Source of the DNA: Pseudoalteromonas shioyasakiensis | Lineage (GTDB): Bacteria; Pseudomonadota; Gammaproteobacteria; Enterobacterales; Alteromonadaceae | DNA: 64,000 bases | Reading direction: 5' to 3' | Assembly (NCBI GenBank): GCA_013391845.1 | Contig: CP058414.1 | Coordinates: forward strand, 186,001-250,000 | Part shown: in pieces, positions 6,837-16,479 of the stretch | Position numbering within the stretch: position 1 is the stretch's first letter | Layout of the letters: every line of letters begins with the position of its first letter | Translations under genes and position numbers: made by a program | Notes under the pieces: model-generated | What the model was told of the DNA's origin: nothing | The model's database searches: none | Seen by the model: only the letters and a program-made list of their open reading frames with translations

Positions 6837-6860
6837 TCATCCCTCCCAAGCACTTTGCTT

Positions 6861-6888
6861 AAAAAACCCAGCTCCGGCTGGGTTTTTT
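6861..6888 (+). terminator. Rho-independent terminator after groEL
   Basis: Perfect 12-base arms AAAAAACCCAGC (6861-6872) and GCTGGGTTTTTT (6877-6888) around the tetraloop TCCG, ending in a T run, 24 bases beyond the groEL stop. Confidence 0.93.
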
Positions 6889-6994
6889 GCATTCATTTAC
6901 TTGCTCTGTAAATAAACAAAGACCTTCTAACTTTACAAGTCATTTGAACCCGCAATAAATAGTTGCCTTTTCCTAATCACCCTTAATTTTGTAT

Positions 6995-7022
6995 TTTACA
7001 TACTTGTACCTAAGTATATACT
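6995..7022 (+). promoter_or_regulatory. Candidate promoter and operator of the heme oxygenase-phytochrome operon
   Basis: TTTACA (6995-7000), a 16-base spacer and TATACT (7017-7022) form a good sigma-70 promoter 45 bases before the first gene. The spacer and -10 are occupied by TACTT-N6-AAGTATATACT (7001-7022), whose core AGTATATACT is a perfect 10-base palindrome. The same composite motif, with N5, recurs at 10865-10885 beside the XRE-S24 regulator. I infer that this regulator, or another common factor, binds both. A binding protein here would block the -10. Confidence 0.6.
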
Positions 7023-7066
7023 GGTGCGAATACTACTAGAATGCTCCAAATACGTTCAGGATAACA

Positions 7067-7699
7067 ATGGGTTCAGCTTTATCAAACGCCACTGTAATAA
7101 CTTGCAATAGCGATCAAAATAATATTCATACTTTTATAAAAAATAGTACCGACTTCCTTCACTCTCGTGTGGAAAAACAACTAGGTGCAGTATTATTCGA
7201 TAAAAATATGACCCAACAATCGTATTTAGAAATTTTAATCGCAATGCATAGTAGCTATTCTATTATGGAGGATGCTATATCAACCTATGGTGCCACAAAA
7301 CATCTACTTGTTGGCCGCAGCAAGCTAAGCTGGTTAAATCAAGATATTGCTTATTTGCAAACATCTCAACACGCTCCATCTGTTAAATTATATAAACACG
7401 ATGATTTAAAAAATATCTGCAACGTATCACATGCATTTGGAATGATGTATGTAATGGAGGGAGCCACCATGGGTGGAGGTCACATATTTAAAGCGCTTAA
7501 AAAGCATAATTGGATAAATGAGCTTGAAGGGATCCGTTTTTTTTATAGTTATGGTGAACTTAGGAATCAAAAGTGGGCTCAATTTATCCACGCACTAAAG
7601 CAGTATCATAACGACAACCCAAACTCAGCAGATGACATTTTATTGGGAGCAAATAAGGCATTTAGCTTAATCTCTCAAGCGCTTGGAGATATAAATTGA
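7067..7699 (+). CDS. bphO: Biliverdin-producing heme oxygenase
   Basis: Opens heme to biliverdin, the chromophore of bacteriophytochromes. The 210-residue protein has the two landmarks of the bacterial heme oxygenase family: a likely proximal heme-ligand histidine H32 in FLHSRVEKQLG, and the distal-helix glycine-rich motif MMYVMEGATMGGGHI. It is the first gene of an operon. Its TGA overlaps the TTG start of the phytochrome by four bases (TTGA), so the chromophore enzyme and photoreceptor are translationally coupled. AGGA lies five bases before the ATG. The DNA looks more AT-rich than the chaperonin genes. Enzyme activity is inferred from family and context. Confidence 0.9.
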   Translation: MGSALSNATVITCNSDQNNIHTFIKNSTDFLHSRVEKQLGAVLFDKNMTQQSYLEILIAMHSSYSIMEDAISTYGATKHLLVGRSKLSWLNQDIAYLQTSQHAPSVKLYKHDDLKNICNVSHAFGMMYVMEGATMGGGHIFKALKKHNWINELEGIRFFYSYGELRNQKWAQFIHALKQYHNDNPNSADDILLGANKAFSLISQALGDIN

Positions 7700-10038
7700 G
7701 CAATACATTTAAAGTCTCATTAGACAATTGCCATAAAGAACCTATTCATATTCCAGGCTCTATACAACCGCATGGGTACTTACTAGTTGTTGACCCTGAA
7801 ACACTCAAAATATGCTATTTCAGCGAAAATATTTTATTGCTTTTAAATACACAAAAGGATCGCTTAGTCGGCTCACATATAACTAATTTCTTTGAAGCGA
7901 ATACATCTAATATCATAGAGGAAAATAAAGCCCAAAAGGACTTTCATGCCATTAACCCACTCAAGATTGAGTTAAAAGGTAAATCGCCTGAGACCTCTAT
8001 TAAAGGTGTTATTTCTCGTAACGATGAATACTTACTCATTGAACTTGAGTTTGATATAAAGAAAGAGCACTCAAGTATTGACCCCATGAATTACTTGATG
8101 AAGCAATCTCTTCACCTAATAGCTGACAAAAAAGAGCTAAACTCATCATTCGACACAGCAGTAGAAGAAGTTCGGAACTTAACAGGTTTTGATCGCGTTA
8201 TGCTCTATCAGTTTGACCATGAATATAATGGTCAAGTCGTAGCAGAAGCCAAAAAAGATGAGTTAAACTCATTTCTACACCAGCATTTTCCTGAGTCAGA
8301 TATTCCAAAGCAAGCACGCGCTTTATATTTGCGTAATCCTATAAGGTTACTTGCAGATGTGGATGCTGAAGTATCACCTATCTACCCACAAGACAAGCCT
8401 GTAGATTTAAGCACGTGTATAACCAGAAGTGTCTCCCCCATTCATTGCCAATATTTACGCAATATGGGTGTTAAAGCATCAATGTCTATCAGTATTATTA
8501 TTGCTGGTAAATTATGGGGGTTAATTGCTTGTCACCACTATTCAAGCCATGTCGTCCCTTTTGAGGCACGACAAGTTGCACAGTATATGGGGTTGATGCT
8601 CTCATATATAATTTCCCTCAAAACACAATCAATCGAAGCGATTCAAGAAGCTAAAGCCACCGCCATCAGTGCAGAGATAGCAGAGCATATGTCTGAAGAA
8701 GTCTTTTTCATTGATGGCTTACGCAAACAAGTTCCTGCTTTACTTAGCATGCTAAGTGCTGATGGTGTTGCATGGCGGCTAGAAAAAGATATTGAAAGTT
8801 TCGGGGATGTACCCGCAAATGATGATATTTATCATTTATTTGAGTGGTTAAAAAGCAACCACTTAGAAGATGAACTGCTGTATCATAACCATCACTTGTC
8901 TAATGAAAATGCTGAATTTAATAAGTTTGCTAATATTGCAAGCGGCGTACTTGCTATGCCTGTTTCTACTAATGAAAACTTATTTATTATGTGGTTTCGT
9001 AAAGAGGTGATTGAAACAAAAAATTGGGGGGGGAAACCTGAAAAGATAATCGAATTTCTTGACGACGGTAGTCACCGCCTTATGCCTCGTAGCTCATTTC
9101 GTTTATGGCAAGAGAATGTACGTAATAAATGCTCACCTTGGAAGGCAAACGAAATATCTTGCGCTATAAAGTTTCGCAATCATTTGGTTAATCATGTTAT
9201 TGAAAAATCTGAGCGCCTTAAAAAGTTAAACAACTTATTAGAAACTAAAGTTAATGAGCGAACTGTCGCTTTAAAAGCGGAAATACTCACTCGACAACAA
9301 GCCGAGCTTGACCTTGAAATCGCACTTAGAAAATCTGAAGAGTCTAACCAAGAGTTAGAACGGTTTGCTTTTGTTGCGTCTCATGATTTACAAGAACCCT
9401 TACGAAAAATACAAATGTTCGGCGATCGCCTGCAAAACTCTAAAGAACAGATTGGAGAAAGAAACGCTTCTTATATCTCTCGTATGATGGATTCTGCCGA
9501 AAGAATGCAAAAACTTATCAAAGGAGTATTGAGTTTTTCTAGAATCAATCGAAAAGGCGAAGAGTTTCGTCACTTTTCAGCATCAGATGTTTTTCATGAT
9601 ATTCTTGATGATCTTGAGTTAATTATCGCTGACAAGGACGCGGTGTTTCACATAGAAGACATTGGTGAAATCTATGGCGACAAACGACAAATCCAGCGTT
9701 TGTTTCAAAACTTAATTCTCAATGCGCTTAAATTTAGTCACCCACATCAAGCACCCATTATAGGGATTAAGTCAGTTGAGCGAACAGACGAGCATCTTGT
9801 TATCGCTGTCATTGATAACGGAATAGGTTTTAATAGCGAGTTTAAAGACAGAATATTTAACCTTTTTGAACGGGTTCACTCTAAACAAGCATACGAAGGA
9901 ACAGGGTTAGGCTTAGCTATTTGTAAGAAAATAGTCGAACGACACCATGGGACAATTACAGCAGAAGCAAATATCAATGAAGGCTCTCAGTTTTACGTCA
10001 CCTTACCACTAAGAGAAATAAAACTAAGTCAGTTTTAG
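7696..10038 (+). CDS. bphP: Bacteriophytochrome sensor histidine kinase
   Basis: Red/far-red photoreceptor kinase of 780 residues. Order: PAS (about 1-110) with the biliverdin-attachment cysteine C12 in DNCHKEPIHIPGSIQPHG; GAF (about 125-310) with the DIP motif (D202 in PESDIPKQAR), H250 in SPIHCQYLRNMGV and H280 in ACHHY; PHY (about 320-500) with the tongue motif PRSSF at 464-468; HisKA with H563 in VASHDLQEPLRK; and an HATPase with DNGIGFN and GTGLGL. All residues needed for a canonical biliverdin phytochrome are present. The start is TTG, overlapping the heme oxygenase stop; no later ATG would retain C12. The partner is probably the single-domain receiver at 10966-11415. The coding strand ends 10 bases before the convergent XRE-S24 gene. 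Confidence 0.96.
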   Translation: MSNTFKVSLDNCHKEPIHIPGSIQPHGYLLVVDPETLKICYFSENILLLLNTQKDRLVGSHITNFFEANTSNIIEENKAQKDFHAINPLKIELKGKSPETSIKGVISRNDEYLLIELEFDIKKEHSSIDPMNYLMKQSLHLIADKKELNSSFDTAVEEVRNLTGFDRVMLYQFDHEYNGQVVAEAKKDELNSFLHQHFPESDIPKQARALYLRNPIRLLADVDAEVSPIYPQDKPVDLSTCITRSVSPIHCQYLRNMGVKASMSISIIIAGKLWGLIACHHYSSHVVPFEARQVAQYMGLMLSYIISLKTQSIEAIQEAKATAISAEIAEHMSEEVFFIDGLRKQVPALLSMLSADGVAWRLEKDIESFGDVPANDDIYHLFEWLKSNHLEDELLYHNHHLSNENAEFNKFANIASGVLAMPVSTNENLFIMWFRKEVIETKNWGGKPEKIIEFLDDGSHRLMPRSSFRLWQENVRNKCSPWKANEISCAIKFRNHLVNHVIEKSERLKKLNNLLETKVNERTVALKAEILTRQQAELDLEIALRKSEESNQELERFAFVASHDLQEPLRKIQMFGDRLQNSKEQIGERNASYISRMMDSAERMQKLIKGVLSFSRINRKGEEFRHFSASDVFHDILDDLELIIADKDAVFHIEDIGEIYGDKRQIQRLFQNLILNALKFSHPHQAPIIGIKSVERTDEHLVIAVIDNGIGFNSEFKDRIFNLFERVHSKQAYEGTGLGLAICKKIVERHHGTITAEANINEGSQFYVTLPLREIKLSQF

Positions 10039-10041
10039 TAA

Positions 10042-10067
10042 TTTACCGCTACGATTGTGGCGGTAAA
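10042..10067. terminator. Possible bidirectional terminator between bphP and the XRE-S24 gene
   Basis: Perfect 8-base arms TTTACCGC (10042-10049) and GCGGTAAA (10060-10067) lie between the convergent genes and overlap the last codons of the minus-strand gene. No long T run follows on either strand, so termination is uncertain. Confidence 0.4.
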
Positions 10068-10807
10068 ACTCTATTAATATGCTCTTTAAGTTGTCTAATT
10101 TCATTTTCAATAGACTCAAAACGCTGACTTTGCATATGTGAGTCTTGATCGGTTATAGAACTTATTTTTGCTTTTACATGCCAGATTTCTAAGATATCAC
10201 TTCCCTGAATTGAATATGTTTTGTACTCAGGGTTATCACTCTTAAATAAGTAACTGACGGGGTCTGTCTTGTGGCTAAAGAGGCGTTTTGCGACAATGCC
10301 ATCTTTAGTGACAGCAACACAAACTGAACCATTCTCTAACTGATTAATATCCTTGACTTGCTCAGTGATCAGCGTTTCTCTGGGGCGGATAGTTGGCATC
10401 ATGCTATCGCCTTCAACTTCGAATAGTCGATAATTGCCATTTTCAAACCCCGGAATTTTATAAACATCCAGAGTTTTAATATAGTCTTCATCACTACACT
10501 GTTCTATATAACCAGCTTGAGCTTCTTCATTGACAAGTGGAATAAATGAAGTCTCTAAGGCTTTTTGATAACTCTGGAAACTCGAGTCATCAAATCCTTC
10601 TATACCAAAAATAAGCCAGTTACAATCTACATTAAACACTTTGCTGATTTTAATAATAGTACTGAGAGATAGGGTCGACTTGCCAGCCTCCAGTTGTGAT
10701 AGAGCCCCCTGAGTTATACCTATTTTATCGGCAAACTCTTGTTGAGAAAGGTTCAAACTTTCGCGAAGAGCTACCACTCTATTAGTACTAGTAAGATTTA
10801 CTGTCAT
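10049..10807 (-). CDS. LexA/CI-like transcriptional regulator: XRE helix-turn-helix plus S24 peptidase-type domain
   Basis: Predicted DNA-binding repressor of 252 residues. An XRE helix-turn-helix occupies about residues 10-68 (LSQQEFADKIGITQGALSQLEAG). An S24 self-cleavage-type domain follows, with the Ala-Gly bond A98-G99 in EAQAGY, nucleophile S135 in EGDSMMPT, and general-base K174 in GIVAKRLF. The last 30 residues look like a short coiled coil. The three catalytic features suggest self-cleavage is possible, though many family members use the domain only for dimerisation. Lying between bphP and its likely receiver on the opposite strand is unusual for phytochrome loci. Its style (AGY...GDSM.PT...KR) reminds me of regulators common in Bacteroidetes; that is recollection, not a search result. 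Target operators may be the repeats at 7001-7022 and 10865-10885. Confidence 0.85.
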   Translation of the reverse strand: MTVNLTSTNRVVALRESLNLSQQEFADKIGITQGALSQLEAGKSTLSLSTIIKISKVFNVDCNWLIFGIEGFDDSSFQSYQKALETSFIPLVNEEAQAGYIEQCSDEDYIKTLDVYKIPGFENGNYRLFEVEGDSMMPTIRPRETLITEQVKDINQLENGSVCVAVTKDGIVAKRLFSHKTDPVSYLFKSDNPEYKTYSIQGSDILEIWHVKAKISSITDQDSHMQSQRFESIENEIRQLKEHINRVLPPQS

Positions 10808-10864
10808 TGGGTTATTAATAAACTTATGTTTGTATTATGGGTATAAGCAAGTTAATATAACACC

Positions 10865-10885
10865 TACTTAACTAAAGTATATACT
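10865..10885. promoter_or_regulatory. Second copy of the operator-like motif, between the regulator and response regulator genes
   Basis: TACTT-N5-AAGTATATACT, the same composite as at 7001-7022 apart from one base of spacing. It contains the perfect palindrome AGTATATACT at 10876-10885 and a TACTT/AAGTA inverted pair. It lies 58 bases before the regulator start and 81 bases before the response regulator start, so it could control both divergent promoters. TATACT can be read on either strand and may serve as a -10, though I see no good -35. Confidence 0.55.
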
Positions 10886-10965
10886 ATTCGATTAACTAAT
10901 TATTTAATTTGTTGTTTTATTTATAAGTATCTACGTGAAAAAGATAAGCTAATCAGGAGTTGCTA

Positions 10966-11415
10966 ATGTTTAACGACAAATTATTTATCAAAAAGTTACG
11001 CTCTGTGAGCTATATTTTAGTTGCGGATGATGACCTCGATGATCAAGAACTCATCCGTGATGCCCTGGTTGAAAATAATGTCGATGAAAATAAAATTCAA
11101 TTTGTTGATGACGGCATGCAATTACTTGAGTCACTCGATAAAAATAAAATTCTACCAAGCCTTATTTTATTAGACCTAAACATGCCAAGAAAGGGTGGAA
11201 AAGAAGCGTTAGTCGAACTAAAAAAATCGGAGCGTTACCGCCATATTCCCATCATAATTTTTACGACTTCTGATTCAGAAGTTGATATTAAGCAATGTTA
11301 TAGCTTAGGTACTAACGCCTTTATGACCAAGCCTTCTAGCTATTATGATTTAGTTGATTCAATGAAAATGCTAACTCAATATTGGCTTGTTCAAGCTAGG
11401 ATAGTCTTAGACTAA
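10966..11415 (+). CDS. Single-domain response regulator, likely partner of the bacteriophytochrome
   Basis: Receiver-only protein of 149 residues with the phosphorylation pocket VADDDLDD, phospho-acceptor aspartate in LILLDLNMPRKGG, the conserved Thr in IIFTTS, and the lysine in FMTKPSS. The DLDD after the acidic pair and the NMPRKGG motif are typical of the Rcp1-like receivers that pair with phytochrome kinases. With no output domain it must act by protein contact or phosphotransfer. CAGGAG lies six bases before the ATG at 10966; the TTG at 10960 abuts that Shine-Dalgarno and is an unlikely start. It is separated from bphP by the XRE-S24 gene on the other strand. Confidence 0.9.
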   Translation: MFNDKLFIKKLRSVSYILVADDDLDDQELIRDALVENNVDENKIQFVDDGMQLLESLDKNKILPSLILLDLNMPRKGGKEALVELKKSERYRHIPIIIFTTSDSEVDIKQCYSLGTNAFMTKPSSYYDLVDSMKMLTQYWLVQARIVLD

Positions 11416-11434
11416 GGCGAAATATTTAGCCTTA
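11413..11434. terminator. Possible bidirectional terminator between response regulator and nnr
   Basis: TAAGGC (11413-11418) and GCCTTA (11429-11434) form a short hairpin with a 10-base AT-rich loop, spanning the gap between the convergent genes. The stem is short and there is no long T run, so this is tentative. Confidence 0.35.
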
Positions 11435-12931
11435 CCTGCTCAAGTCAGCACTGCTTGCCAACTCTTTTATCAGCTCCCTTACAACGACAAACAAATCACT
11501 CGGTAACATGCCTCTTTCGCCTTCACGCTCTGCGGCAATATCACCAGCTTTTGCATGTAAGGTTACGCCTAAGCAAGCTGCTTGCTGAGGAGTAAGCCCC
11601 TGTGCGATCAGGGCCGCTATGATGCCTGTTAAAACATCGCCACTGCCGCCAACCGCAAGTGCAGGATTTCCATCTGTACACACCCATGTTTGGTTAGTGT
11701 CAGCAATTAAACTACCAGCACCTTTTAGTACACAAGTAGTGGTATAGCTATGTGCGAGCTGCTTTACCGCATGAAAGCGATTTTCTTCAATATCGCTTGC
11801 GCGACAATTGAGTAACCTTGCAGCCTCACCGGGGTGTGGTGTTATAACTGTATTAACTAATGGGAATGACGAAGCATGCTGAGCCATTAAGTTAAGTGCA
11901 TCAGCATCAATCACCAGAGGTTTATTATTAGTGAAACAATACTGCATGACAGTTTCAAATGTTGTTTCTGACCAAGTGTCTTGTCCAAGCCCAGGGCCGA
12001 TGGTGATACAACTTGCCCATTCTAATGCACTAATTAAGTTTGTATCAGTCACCATTAATTCTGGTCGGCCAATACTGACTGGCAAAATAGAACTGCTGTG
12101 AGTATAAACCTTCACCATACCTGCGCCAGTCCGAAGAGCGGCTTCTGCGGTCAAACGAATTGCACCCGCTGTCCCTGCGTTACCACCAATACATAGCAAC
12201 TTACCATGGTTAGTTTTGTGACTGTTATTATCACGTCGAGAGAGCGGTGATTGACTTTGATAATTGATAAGCTCAGCAGTGGGTGCTGTCAGTTTTAAAA
12301 AGGTATCTCCAATACCCAAGTCAGCAAACTCAAGATTACCTGCATGTGCTCGTCCTTGCCCTGTCACTAAACCTTGTTTAATACCCACAAAGGTAACAGT
12401 GATTGCCGCTTTTATTGCGATCCCCTGTATTACACCTGTGTCTGCATGAATGCCTGATGGTAAATCAATGGCAACAATCGGCTTTTGACTTTCATTAGCG
12501 GCTTTAATCAACTCTGAGAAAGGTTCGCGCACCTCGCTTTGAATACCTAAACCGTCAATGATGATATCTGCTTGTTCAATAGCGCTAACATCCGTTGTTA
12601 TTACTCCCCCAGCATTGAGCCAAGCTTGCTGAGCACTCAGCGCATCACCTTTGAGAGGTTTATCTTGTAAGCCAGCAATAACTGTAACCTGCTTACCCGC
12701 TTGTTTAGCTAAGCGGGCAACAACATAGCCATCACCCGCATTGTTACCAACGCCAGCTAATACAACGAATGTACTTGCTTTAGGAAAATAGCTGATAGCT
12801 TGCTTATAAGTAGCCAGCCCTGCTCGCTCCATAAGCTCATATAAAGTTACACCAGAGCGCTTAGCTGCTGGGCCTTCATTTTCACGAACTTGTTCTGCTA
12901 AAAATACCGACTGCGAGAGCACAACTGACAT
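11432..12931 (-). CDS. nnr: Bifunctional NAD(P)H-hydrate repair enzyme (epimerase plus ADP-dependent dehydratase)
   Basis: Repairs damaged, hydrated NAD(P)H. The 499 residues hold an N-terminal YjeF_N epimerase domain (about 1-215) with the nucleotide-binding GVGNNAGDGYVVARLAK, and a C-terminal ribokinase-like dehydratase domain (about 225-490) with KTNHGKLLCIGG, ITPHPGEAARLL and the catalytic signature GSGDVLTGIIAAL. The fused form is usual in proteobacteria. In E. coli nnr precedes tsaE and amiB, but here the next gene downstream (leftward) is the convergent response regulator, so that neighbourhood is broken. Confidence 0.95.
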   Translation of the reverse strand: MSVVLSQSVFLAEQVRENEGPAAKRSGVTLYELMERAGLATYKQAISYFPKASTFVVLAGVGNNAGDGYVVARLAKQAGKQVTVIAGLQDKPLKGDALSAQQAWLNAGGVITTDVSAIEQADIIIDGLGIQSEVREPFSELIKAANESQKPIVAIDLPSGIHADTGVIQGIAIKAAITVTFVGIKQGLVTGQGRAHAGNLEFADLGIGDTFLKLTAPTAELINYQSQSPLSRRDNNSHKTNHGKLLCIGGNAGTAGAIRLTAEAALRTGAGMVKVYTHSSSILPVSIGRPELMVTDTNLISALEWASCITIGPGLGQDTWSETTFETVMQYCFTNNKPLVIDADALNLMAQHASSFPLVNTVITPHPGEAARLLNCRASDIEENRFHAVKQLAHSYTTTCVLKGAGSLIADTNQTWVCTDGNPALAVGGSGDVLTGIIAALIAQGLTPQQAACLGVTLHAKAGDIAAEREGERGMLPSDLFVVVRELIKELASSADLSR

Positions 12932-13008
12932 CTCTATCCTTAAATTGGCCTTTTAACCAGCATATAAGTACAGGCTAATGTAGTCAATGAGCAACTCTAA
13001 GGAATAAA

Positions 13009-13040
13009 AAACGGCGCGTAACTTACATTACGCGCCGTTT
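13009..13040 (-). terminator. Rho-independent terminator after speD
   Basis: Perfect 13-base arms AAACGGCGCGTAA (13009-13021) and TTACGCGCCGTTT (13028-13040) with a 6-base loop, followed by a T run on the minus strand, 19 bases beyond the speD stop. Confidence 0.92.
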
Positions 13041-13059
13041 CTTTAAAGCTTGTGGTTAC

Positions 13060-13872
13060 TTACTCTGTATCTGGCAAGTTACGACCGTAGAAGATTTCTT
13101 GCATCTCGCGAGTCAGCTTTGAGTAGATAACTTCTTCTTCTTCTTCAGATAAATCCGCTGTAGAAACACCGAATAAATAAGTATTCAGGTCAGTTTCTTT
13201 TAACATCATCTTAGTATGGAACAAGTTCTCTTGATACACATTCACGTCCATCATTTGGTACGCTTCTTTAGTATCTTCAGTCATGTAGTTCTGAATTGAG
13301 TTAATCGCGTGATCGATATAGTGTTTAACACCATCTACGTCACGCGTAAAACCACGTACACGGTAGTCAATGGTTACAACATCAGACTCAAGGCTGTGAA
13401 TTAAGAAGTTTAACGCTTTTAATGGCGAAATTATGCCACATGTTGATACTTCGATATCAGCACGGAACGTACAAATACCATCATCAGGGTGTGCTTCTGG
13501 ATATGTATGAACACAGATGTGGCTCTTATCTAAGTGCGCTACAACTGTTTCAGGAAGAGGGCCCGGCGCTTCATCAACTTCATACGTCGTTTGCTGTTCA
13601 ATTGGCTCTTCTGAGATCAAGATTGTCACGCTAGCGCCTTGCGGATCATAATCTTGGCGAGAAACATTTAGAATGTTTGCGCCAATAATATCCACAACTT
13701 CACCTAAAATATCGGTCAGGCGATCAGCACTGTACTGTTCGTCGATATATTCGATATATTCCTTACGCTGTTGTTCAGTCTTTGCGTAACAAATATCGTA
13801 AATACTAAAGCTTAAGCTCTTAGTTAAGTTATTAAAGCCATGAAGCTTAATTTTATCGAAGGGTTTATTCAT
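13060..13872 (-). CDS. speD: S-adenosylmethionine decarboxylase proenzyme
   Basis: Makes decarboxylated AdoMet, the aminopropyl donor for spermidine. The 270 residues match the E. coli-type enzyme in length. The self-processing site is K116-S117 in [13 protein letters not shown]; the serine becomes the pyruvoyl cofactor of the alpha chain. [19 protein letters not shown] carries the conserved acidic and cysteine residues. No speE is adjacent. Single-gene transcript with a strong terminator; the 87-base gap to the OsmC-family gene upstream should hold its promoter. Confidence 0.96.
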
Positions 13873-13959
13873 GCTAAACCAACCTTAAAACGAGTGAACC
13901 TGCACCAGCAGAAATAAAAGTTCGCGGATTTTATACGAATTTTCTGCTCGGAAAAAGCG

Positions 13960-14373
13960 TTATTTTACCTGTTCTTGCACAACTTCATGACTATGCGTAA
14001 TTTCTACTGTCTTATCAAGCATTAAGGCTACAGAGCAATACTTTTCAGCAGATAATTGAACGGCACGAGCAAGGTGCTTTTCTGAAACATTATCACCAGT
14101 GACCACAAAGTGTAGATTAATCTTGGTAAACACGCGAGGAGCTGACTCAGCACGCTCTGCTGTTAGCTTAACTTGCACATCAGAAAATGATTGTTTTGCT
14201 TTTTTTAAAATACTAACAACATCAACAGATGAGCAGCACCCAGCTGACATTAAGACCATTTCCATTGGGCTTGGCGCTGCGCTATCACTACCTGCATCAA
14301 AAACTACATTATGACCTGAATTTGAAAGGCCAATAAACGTATCGCCATCTACCCATTTTACATTCGCTTGCAT
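13960..14373 (-). CDS. OsmC family protein (YhfA-like)
   Basis: OsmC/Ohr-fold protein of 137 residues, likely with thiol peroxidase-type chemistry. Two cysteine sites are placed as in the family: MSAGCCSSVDV near residue 46 and EKYCSVALML near residue 112. The sequence is closer to the YhfA subgroup than to OsmC or Ohr proper, judging by length and the SVDVVSILKK segment. It lies between a small hypothetical gene and speD, all on the minus strand with separate gaps. The substrate is unknown. Confidence 0.85.
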   Translation of the reverse strand: MQANVKWVDGDTFIGLSNSGHNVVFDAGSDSAAPSPMEMVLMSAGCCSSVDVVSILKKAKQSFSDVQVKLTAERAESAPRVFTKINLHFVVTGDNVSEKHLARAVQLSAEKYCSVALMLDKTVEITHSHEVVQEQVK

Positions 14374-14456
14374 GTGTTTTATCTCTTAAAGTTATTTTGT
14401 TTGATTGTAAGCAAGTCACTCACAGATGCAAGGGATAAAAGGTAAGCTATATGAAA

Positions 14457-14483
14457 GCGAGTAGCTTATTTCAAGCTACTCGC
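14457..14483 (-). terminator. Rho-independent terminator after the 115-residue gene
   Basis: Perfect 11-base arms GCGAGTAGCTT (14457-14467) and AAGCTACTCGC (14473-14483) around a 5-base loop, followed on the minus strand by a short T-rich stretch. It lies 33 bases beyond the stop at 14516. Confidence 0.75.
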
Positions 14484-14515
14484 TGAAAGACTAGAATTTT
14501 GTAGTTATTTATAAA

Positions 14516-14863
14516 TTAGGCGCTTTCTACAACAGCGCTATCGAATAAGTTTTTCACTAATCCGGCAAATTCGTCAATAAAGGCATGTTGTTCAACGGTT
14601 ACTGTGTGATTTGTAACGCTACTTAGCACTTCTTGTAAGTCGTATACGATACCGTCGACTTCACGGACAATTTGGCTGCGTTGTTCGGTATTAAGCTCTG
14701 TGTGTTGTTCGCAAAGTAACATGACGTTTTCTGCTATCACGTCTTCAATCAGCTCTAACACTGTTGGAGCTCCTGGTTTAATTTGACCCGGCTTCTCAAA
14801 AAGCGCTAAATTTTGAGTGAGATACATGACAAGATCATCATACCCTTGCCTATCTAAAACCAT
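14516..14863 (-). CDS. Conserved small protein of Alteromonadales, probably DUF3802
   Basis: Acidic, soluble, mostly helical-looking protein of 115 residues with no signal peptide or membrane segment. I recall a DUF3802 family of this size restricted to Alteromonadales-like bacteria, and the pattern (GYDDLVMYLTQNL near the start, FAGLVKNLF near the end) seems to fit, but the assignment is from memory. It sits alone between the ast operon and the OsmC-family gene, with its own terminator. Function unknown. Confidence 0.7.
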   Translation of the reverse strand: MVLDRQGYDDLVMYLTQNLALFEKPGQIKPGAPTVLELIEDVIAENVMLLCEQHTELNTEQRSQIVREVDGIVYDLQEVLSSVTNHTVTVEQHAFIDEFAGLVKNLFDSAVVESA

Positions 14864-14950
14864 ACGACTTCACACCTAATAAAAAACTACCTCTTTAGAT
14901 TTAAGCAGAAAGCGCTTTTAATTGCTACCTTTGCCACGCATCTCATACAA

Positions 14951-14974
14951 AAAAAGCAGCCAAAGCTGCTTTTT
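14951..14974 (-). terminator. Rho-independent terminator after astD
   Basis: Perfect 10-base arms AAAAAGCAGC (14951-14960) and GCTGCTTTTT (14965-14974) around the loop CAAA, 17 bases beyond the astD stop. Confidence 0.9.
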
Positions 14975-14991
14975 ATAGTTATTTACGATTA

Positions 14992-16479
<1,488 letters not shown>

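Follow-up and report, generated by a model that had tools for sequence, protein, structure and literature searches.

In a 64,000-nucleotide stretch of the Pseudoalteromonas shioyasakiensis genome (assembly GCA_013391845.1, contig CP058414.1, positions 186,001 to 250,000; hereafter the window), genes for a heme oxygenase (bphO), a bacteriophytochrome kinase (bphP), a protein with a helix-turn-helix (HTH) and a peptidase S24 domain (XRE-S24) and a single-domain receiver lie next to one another. We consider it quite probable that XRE-S24 is an autocleavable LexA/CI-like repressor that represses itself and the divergent receiver gene via a pair of dyads (O1 and O2) that lie between the two genes (Table 1), and that a composite motif shared by two promoters of the locus, proposed in an earlier note as the regulator's binding site, is promoter core without operator function or the site of another factor. 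This explanation draws on gene order, conservation, the dyad pair shared with other genera, the S24 residues and the overlap with predicted promoters, all of which are sequence-based.

Table 1 Features of the phytochrome locus, in window coordinates
Feature	Position	Strand	Details
Promoter of bphO-bphP, predicted sigma-70-like, TTTACA-N16-TATACT	6995..7022	+	consensus scan 10/12, best of 12 sites
First composite motif of the earlier note, spacer and -10 of the predicted bphO promoter	7001..7022	+	exact in 5/6 genomes
bphO, heme oxygenase	7067..7699	+	Pfam PF01126
bphP, PAS-GAF-PHY-HisKA-HATPase bacteriophytochrome kinase	7696..10038	+	Pfam
XRE-S24 repressor (putative), 252 aa	10049..10807	-	HTH 13-65, Peptidase_S24 90-207
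O1, predicted XRE-S24 operator GTTATTAATAAACTTATGTT	10811..10830		3 bp from XRE start codon; matrix rank 2 in window
O2, predicted XRE-S24 operator GGTATAAGCAAGTTAATATA	10840..10859		29 bp from O1; matrix rank 3 in window
Promoter of receiver gene, predicted sigma-70-like, ATAACA-N17-TATACT	10857..10885	+	consensus scan 9/12
Second composite motif of the earlier note, spacer and -10 of the predicted receiver promoter	10865..10885	+	AAGTATATACTA in 6/6 genomes, TACTT in 1/6
Single-domain response regulator (receiver)	10966..11415	+	Pfam PF00072 only; start placed at conserved ATG

A dyad pair in the XRE-receiver gap

The gaps between the XRE-S24 and receiver genes of other genera share an 18-bp dyad, ATATTAG-N4-CTAATAT. 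Twelve such gaps from 11 loci served to train a symmetric matrix of 20 bases, with the home genus excluded and the window unseen. When each locus was held out in turn, its best site ranked first in seven of the 12 gaps, second in three, and fourth and eighth in the remaining two, and in 9 of the 12 the held-out result was equalled by at most 5 of 2000 shuffles. The two best sites lie 27-29 bp apart in 7 of the 12 training gaps. In the window the matrix scores 16.0 for O1 and O2; among 20,000 shuffled gaps, 112 attained this best score and none had a second site as strong. O2 overlaps the -35 element of the predicted receiver promoter by 3 bp. The two dyads are also the top two sites in the four other complete home-genus loci. 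Each is identical in five home-genus genomes; in the sixth, G073, O1 differs at one base and, as the assembly breaks in this gap, only the right half of O2 is present. The pattern DTATTAANNNNCTTATRY gave 18 matches in the six genomes, 11 of them at the locus, versus 2 for the reversed control. Five of the seven off-locus matches are one and the same sequence in five genomes, whose copy in the home genome (G000) lies between two transporter genes and reaches the start of the second, and another sits in a coding frame. The matrix was also applied to eight XRE loci that had not been used in training; the best site upstream of the gene ranked first in L283, L285 and L288 and second in L287 and L289.

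Several results weigh against this assignment. Three further training gaps, all from Bacteroidota, fit weakly (63, 392 and 644 of 2000 shuffles were as good), and one of them belongs to a phytochrome locus (L277). The matrix was seeded by visual inspection of the gaps of Exilibacterium and Gilvimarinus, so that the held-out results of these two are not fully independent. In the remaining loci outside training the site ranked second but scored only 4.9 (L278), fifth with 2.7 (L167) or 34th with -0.4 (L099). The top matrix site of the window is neither O1 nor O2; it lies at 8918-8937, inside the bphP coding sequence. In four orthologues its score is 11.1-12.7, and in G074 it falls outside the top six; we have taken it as chance because its strength is not kept in the orthologues. 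A single dyad scoring 15.3, near the value of O1 and O2, is found elsewhere in the home genome (L316, 1500-1519; G000:C1:2278607-2278624), directly upstream of a gene that we take to be asnS. Finally, when the strict consensus was searched with one mismatch allowed in 14 genomes, the reversed control equalled or exceeded the real pattern in all six Bacteroidota genomes as well as in G861 and G074, and the real pattern exceeded the control in the other six; the bare consensus with one mismatch is therefore not specific in Bacteroidota.

A perfect ATATTAG-N4-CTAATAT was also observed in another genus (L179, 9905-9922; G166:C12:216904-216921), just upstream of a gene for a 247-residue, apparently membrane, protein that adjoins the receiver gene; the repressor may have this gene as a third target.

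The putative repressor, its neighbourhood and its distribution

Both halves of the 252-residue protein are recognised by Pfam well above the cut-offs, PF01381 (HTH) with 64 bits (cut-off 23) and PF00717 (Peptidase_S24) with 45.3 bits (cut-off 23.3). Ala98-Gly99, Ser135 and Lys174 are invariant in all 25 sequences of an alignment of the home protein with a selection of 24 from 120 listed relatives; by analogy with LexA, we take the first pair to be the cleavage site and the other two to be the catalytic residues. The protein model matches LexA, with a LexA-like fold in the C-terminal domain. The HTH domain matches the HTH structures of 434, P22 c2, SinR and DdrO, and a sequence search of the PDB gave seven matches, including the 434 repressor, all over the HTH end. 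Judged by its domains, residues and fold, XRE-S24 would be an autocleaving S24 (LexA/CI-like) repressor, the cleavage itself being a prediction. A phage or plasmid origin was considered and rejected: there is no plasmid match at E 1e-20, and the viral relatives among the matches listed (80 of 165 viral loci) reach at most 36% identity over the best segment.

At the home locus, heme oxygenase, phytochrome kinase and receiver are encoded together, and XRE-S24 lies reversed between bphP and the receiver gene. The locus is a split variant of the bphO-bphP-receiver two-component locus and not a plain operon. PF00072 is the sole Pfam match of the receiver, which revealed no output domain, and its phosphorylation residues (the acidic pair, the aspartate of LDLNMP and the lysine) are kept in all 14 receivers aligned. 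XRE-S24 orthologues (85-100% identity) occur in 6 of 108 home-genus genomes, with another 25 holding matches of only 25-29%. The same six genomes carry BphP at 87-100% and keep the order and neighbourhood groES-groEL-bphO-bphP, reversed XRE, receiver. Seven other home-genus genomes have a bphP of about 60% identity adjoining a receiver gene and lack XRE-S24; in the 88,874 positions of these loci no site reaches 15.9, the best (14.1) being upstream of bphP in L077. In three of the loci without XRE-S24 (L073, L077 and L079) a gene for an HTH-like protein of 102-111 residues stands upstream of bphP in the same direction. The bphP of G045 (L079) is interrupted by stops and the match in G044 (L078) is split over two frames, which suggests decay of bphP in this lineage.

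Beyond the home genus the protein is uncommon. At E 1e-40 it was found in 3 of 395 genomes of the family, including the home genome, and in the class only in the home genome among 369; at E 1e-35 the family of a Gilvimarinus genome has it in 4 of 144 genomes and the family of a Bacteroidia metagenome-assembled genome (MAG) in 9 of 245. We read 17 loci from 15 genomes of other genera. In 11 of them a gene for a homologous receiver lies next to XRE-S24 (L097, L098, L277, L179, L180, L279, L280, L281, L282, L284 and L286); in the other six it does not (L278, L283, L285, L287, L288 and L289). XRE-S24, receiver, bphO and bphP stand together in two of the 17, both from Bacteroidota, the Bacteroidia MAG (L277) and Fulvivirga sp. 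M361 (L282), both with receiver-bphO-bphP as the divergent operon; no heme oxygenase match was obtained in the other 15. Among 78 more distant loci (L099-L176), a weakly similar receiver lies within 1 kb in L129 and L167 and about 6.7 kb away in L126. In L167 (Fulvivirgaceae bacterium JP3-4, 7884-15848), a repressor of 33% identity faces a run of genes for a heme oxygenase, a 505-residue phytochrome-sensory match, a 1535-residue kinase match and a receiver, making up a further S24-phytochrome neighbourhood whose layout differs from that of the home locus.

As the neighbourhood is kept in six genomes and the four genes stand together in two Bacteroidota loci, we regard it as very probable that XRE-S24 regulates locally and belongs to this phytochrome signalling locus. 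The earlier note had likewise proposed one local regulator, most simply the XRE-S24 protein, and in this respect our analysis agrees with it; its further proposal, that the composite motif is the means by which the regulator acts on the two promoters, did not find support. Control of bphO-bphP, which the note had included, is not indicated in the home genome: the groEL-bphO gap holding the bphO promoter contains no dyad site, with a maximum matrix score of 0.27 in the window, and in the five other genomes none of the six best sites listed per locus lies there (the sixth-best scoring 5.6 to 7.6). It is indicated in Fulvivirga sp. M361, since bphO-bphP belong there to the divergent operon behind a strong pair of dyads; the dyads before the same operon in the Bacteroidia MAG are weak. 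Thus, bphO-bphP would be under XRE-S24 only where they share the operon of the receiver, as in Fulvivirga sp. M361.

The composite motif and competing explanations

The motif itself is where the earlier note had placed it, as TACTT-N6-AAGTATATACT at 7001-7022 and TACTT-N5-AAGTATATACT at 10865-10885. The note had the first copy covering the -10 and spacer of a promoter, and in a consensus scan both copies are so placed. Both promoters remain predictions, because the 12 promoter-like sites in the scanned 4.2 kb are no more than in shuffles (mean 14.5). The whole-genome search that the note had suggested found the N5/6 pattern exactly twice in the 3.63-Mb home genome and the reversed control not at all, so the motif is not abundant outside the locus. 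With N4-7 the pattern is present in 6 of 108 home-genus genomes, five with the locus and one (G001, L063) with a copy inside a coding frame, which we took as chance. AAGTATATACTR has 11 matches across the six locus-bearing genomes (about 26 Mb), all 11 at the locus; the copy of G073 stands at the beginning of a different contig, some 85 bases ahead of the match to the receiver.

Comparison of the orthologous loci, also suggested by the note, found the motif there, though not its composite form at the second site, where the core AAGTATATACTA is kept in all six genomes and the TACTT of G000 is TGCTT in the other five. The first site is exact in every genome except G074, which reads TACTA and ATGTA. 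Around it the bphO promoter forms a conserved block, with 22-25 of 30 columns invariant in three windows of 30 columns (6978 to 7026), as against 3-11 in nine such windows from 6888 to 6986. Before this promoter, at 6860-6889, a strong terminator-like hairpin follows groEL, and it is also conserved.

Sharing of the motif beyond chance, on which the idea of identical elements depended, was not borne out. At least one comparable pair of 11+5-base repeats within 4.5 kb appeared in 26 of 40 first-order Markov windows, the real window having two; this test replaced a first one, with 20 observed pairs against a mean of 5.4 and a maximum of 29 in simulations, that had counted low-complexity repeats. 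The two promoter regions were aligned as well by 159 (G000), 238 (G082), 148 (G003) and 1796 (G074) of 3000 shuffles, which is about the 5-8% level in the first three genomes and no better than typical in G074. The second region was aligned equally well by 34 of 1406 other pieces of the window. A promoter duplication as the origin of the motif was rejected, the alignment being hardly above shuffles. Thus, the element is real, has a conserved core and is locus-specific, and the claim of one shared operator is statistically weak because of the simulated windows, the shuffles and the presence of TACTT in one of six genomes.

How these results are to be explained can be weighed in three ways. The reading in which both copies of the composite motif are sites of XRE-S24, giving it control over bphO-bphP, the receiver and its own gene, appears improbable to us. 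The confinement of AAGTATATACTR to the locus and the conserved spacer of the bphO promoter speak for it, as does the agreement of ATACTT-N6-AAGTAT with ATATTA-N6-TAATAT in arm length and spacing; however, the best 20-mers around the two sites score -1.4 and -2.5 versus 16.0 for O1 and O2, the dyad is broken in G074 and spaced otherwise at the second site, sharing beyond chance was not borne out, and the region ITQGALSQLE of the protein is unchanged in those relatives that have the other dyad, ATATTAG-N4-CTAATAT, in their gaps. On these matrix scores the motif was rejected as the operator of XRE-S24, which is probably not its binder, the less conspicuous dyads being the more probable site of the regulator.

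Two other explanations are compatible with repression through O1 and O2. A second regulator or a promoter-selecting factor may read AAGTATATACT and couple the bphO-bphP and receiver promoters, which would account for both core promoters being conserved beyond their hexamers and for the restriction of AAGTATATACTR to the locus. We hold this only tentatively, as there is no candidate regulator, G074 deviates at two bases, and the likeness may be a chance one of two promoters with the same -10. We give about even chances to the simpler possibility that the motif is nothing but two similar core promoters without regulatory meaning. Both copies coincide with a predicted spacer and -10, and the simulations and shuffles produce pairs and alignments of this kind, but conservation of the spacers across six genomes and the absence of AAGTATATACTR from the rest of about 26 Mb speak against it.

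Possible mechanism and relation to known systems

If O1 and O2 are indeed the operator, XRE-S24 would bind them as two dimers and repress both its own gene and the receiver gene; since the XRE start adjoins O1 and the -35 of the predicted receiver promoter overlaps O2, occupancy would repress both. A distance of about 28 bp between the dyads is suited to dimers that bind cooperatively, as those of CI-type repressors do. A signal may then cause self-cleavage between Ala98 and Gly99 through Ser135 and Lys174, or another kind of release, upon which the receiver would be induced and the amount of the phytochrome's partner set. Candidate triggers are DNA damage through RecA and the phosphorylated receiver itself. 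Binding, the direction of repression, cooperativity, cleavage and trigger are the parts of this scheme that we infer. We also speculate, although we consider it rather unlikely, that receiver and repressor form one signalling unit, in which the receiver, phosphorylated by the phytochrome or another kinase, would drive cleavage or release of the repressor; the LexA-like protein would then stand in for the missing output domain of a two-component system, and the receiver would induce its own gene.

XRE-S24 resembles LexA and phage CI-type repressors in having an HTH at the N-terminus, an S24 domain with the Ala-Gly pair, Ser and Lys at the C-terminus, and predicted dyads beside its own start. 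Unlike them, it would have ATATTAG-N4-CTAATAT as its operator and a receiver gene as its partner; its HTH domain matches the four structures named above, and plasmid and close viral relatives are lacking among the matches described above. The bphO-bphP-bphR operon of Deinococcus radiodurans, as described in the main text of PMC8363230, similarly unites heme oxygenase, phytochrome kinase and response regulator genes, whereas at the home locus a separate promoter is predicted for the receiver gene, and an S24 repressor gene diverges from it. That text reports that bphP and bphR mutations alter mitomycin C survival, and the terms LexA and DdrO are absent from it; by analogy its result prompts the idea of a damage link and is no evidence for the home locus. 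With Pseudomonas aeruginosa, as far as PMC6932827 describes it, the locus shares the bphO-bphP dicistron and differs in its single-domain receiver. Among the literature matches listed, no title or abstract opening concerned an S24 repressor at a phytochrome locus.

Single-domain receivers beside phytochromes themselves lack an output domain. The repeated pairing of receivers with a putative autocleavable repressor, seen in two phyla and with a testable operator, offers a concrete place to seek that output, and it may constitute a link between light sensing and damage-type signals.
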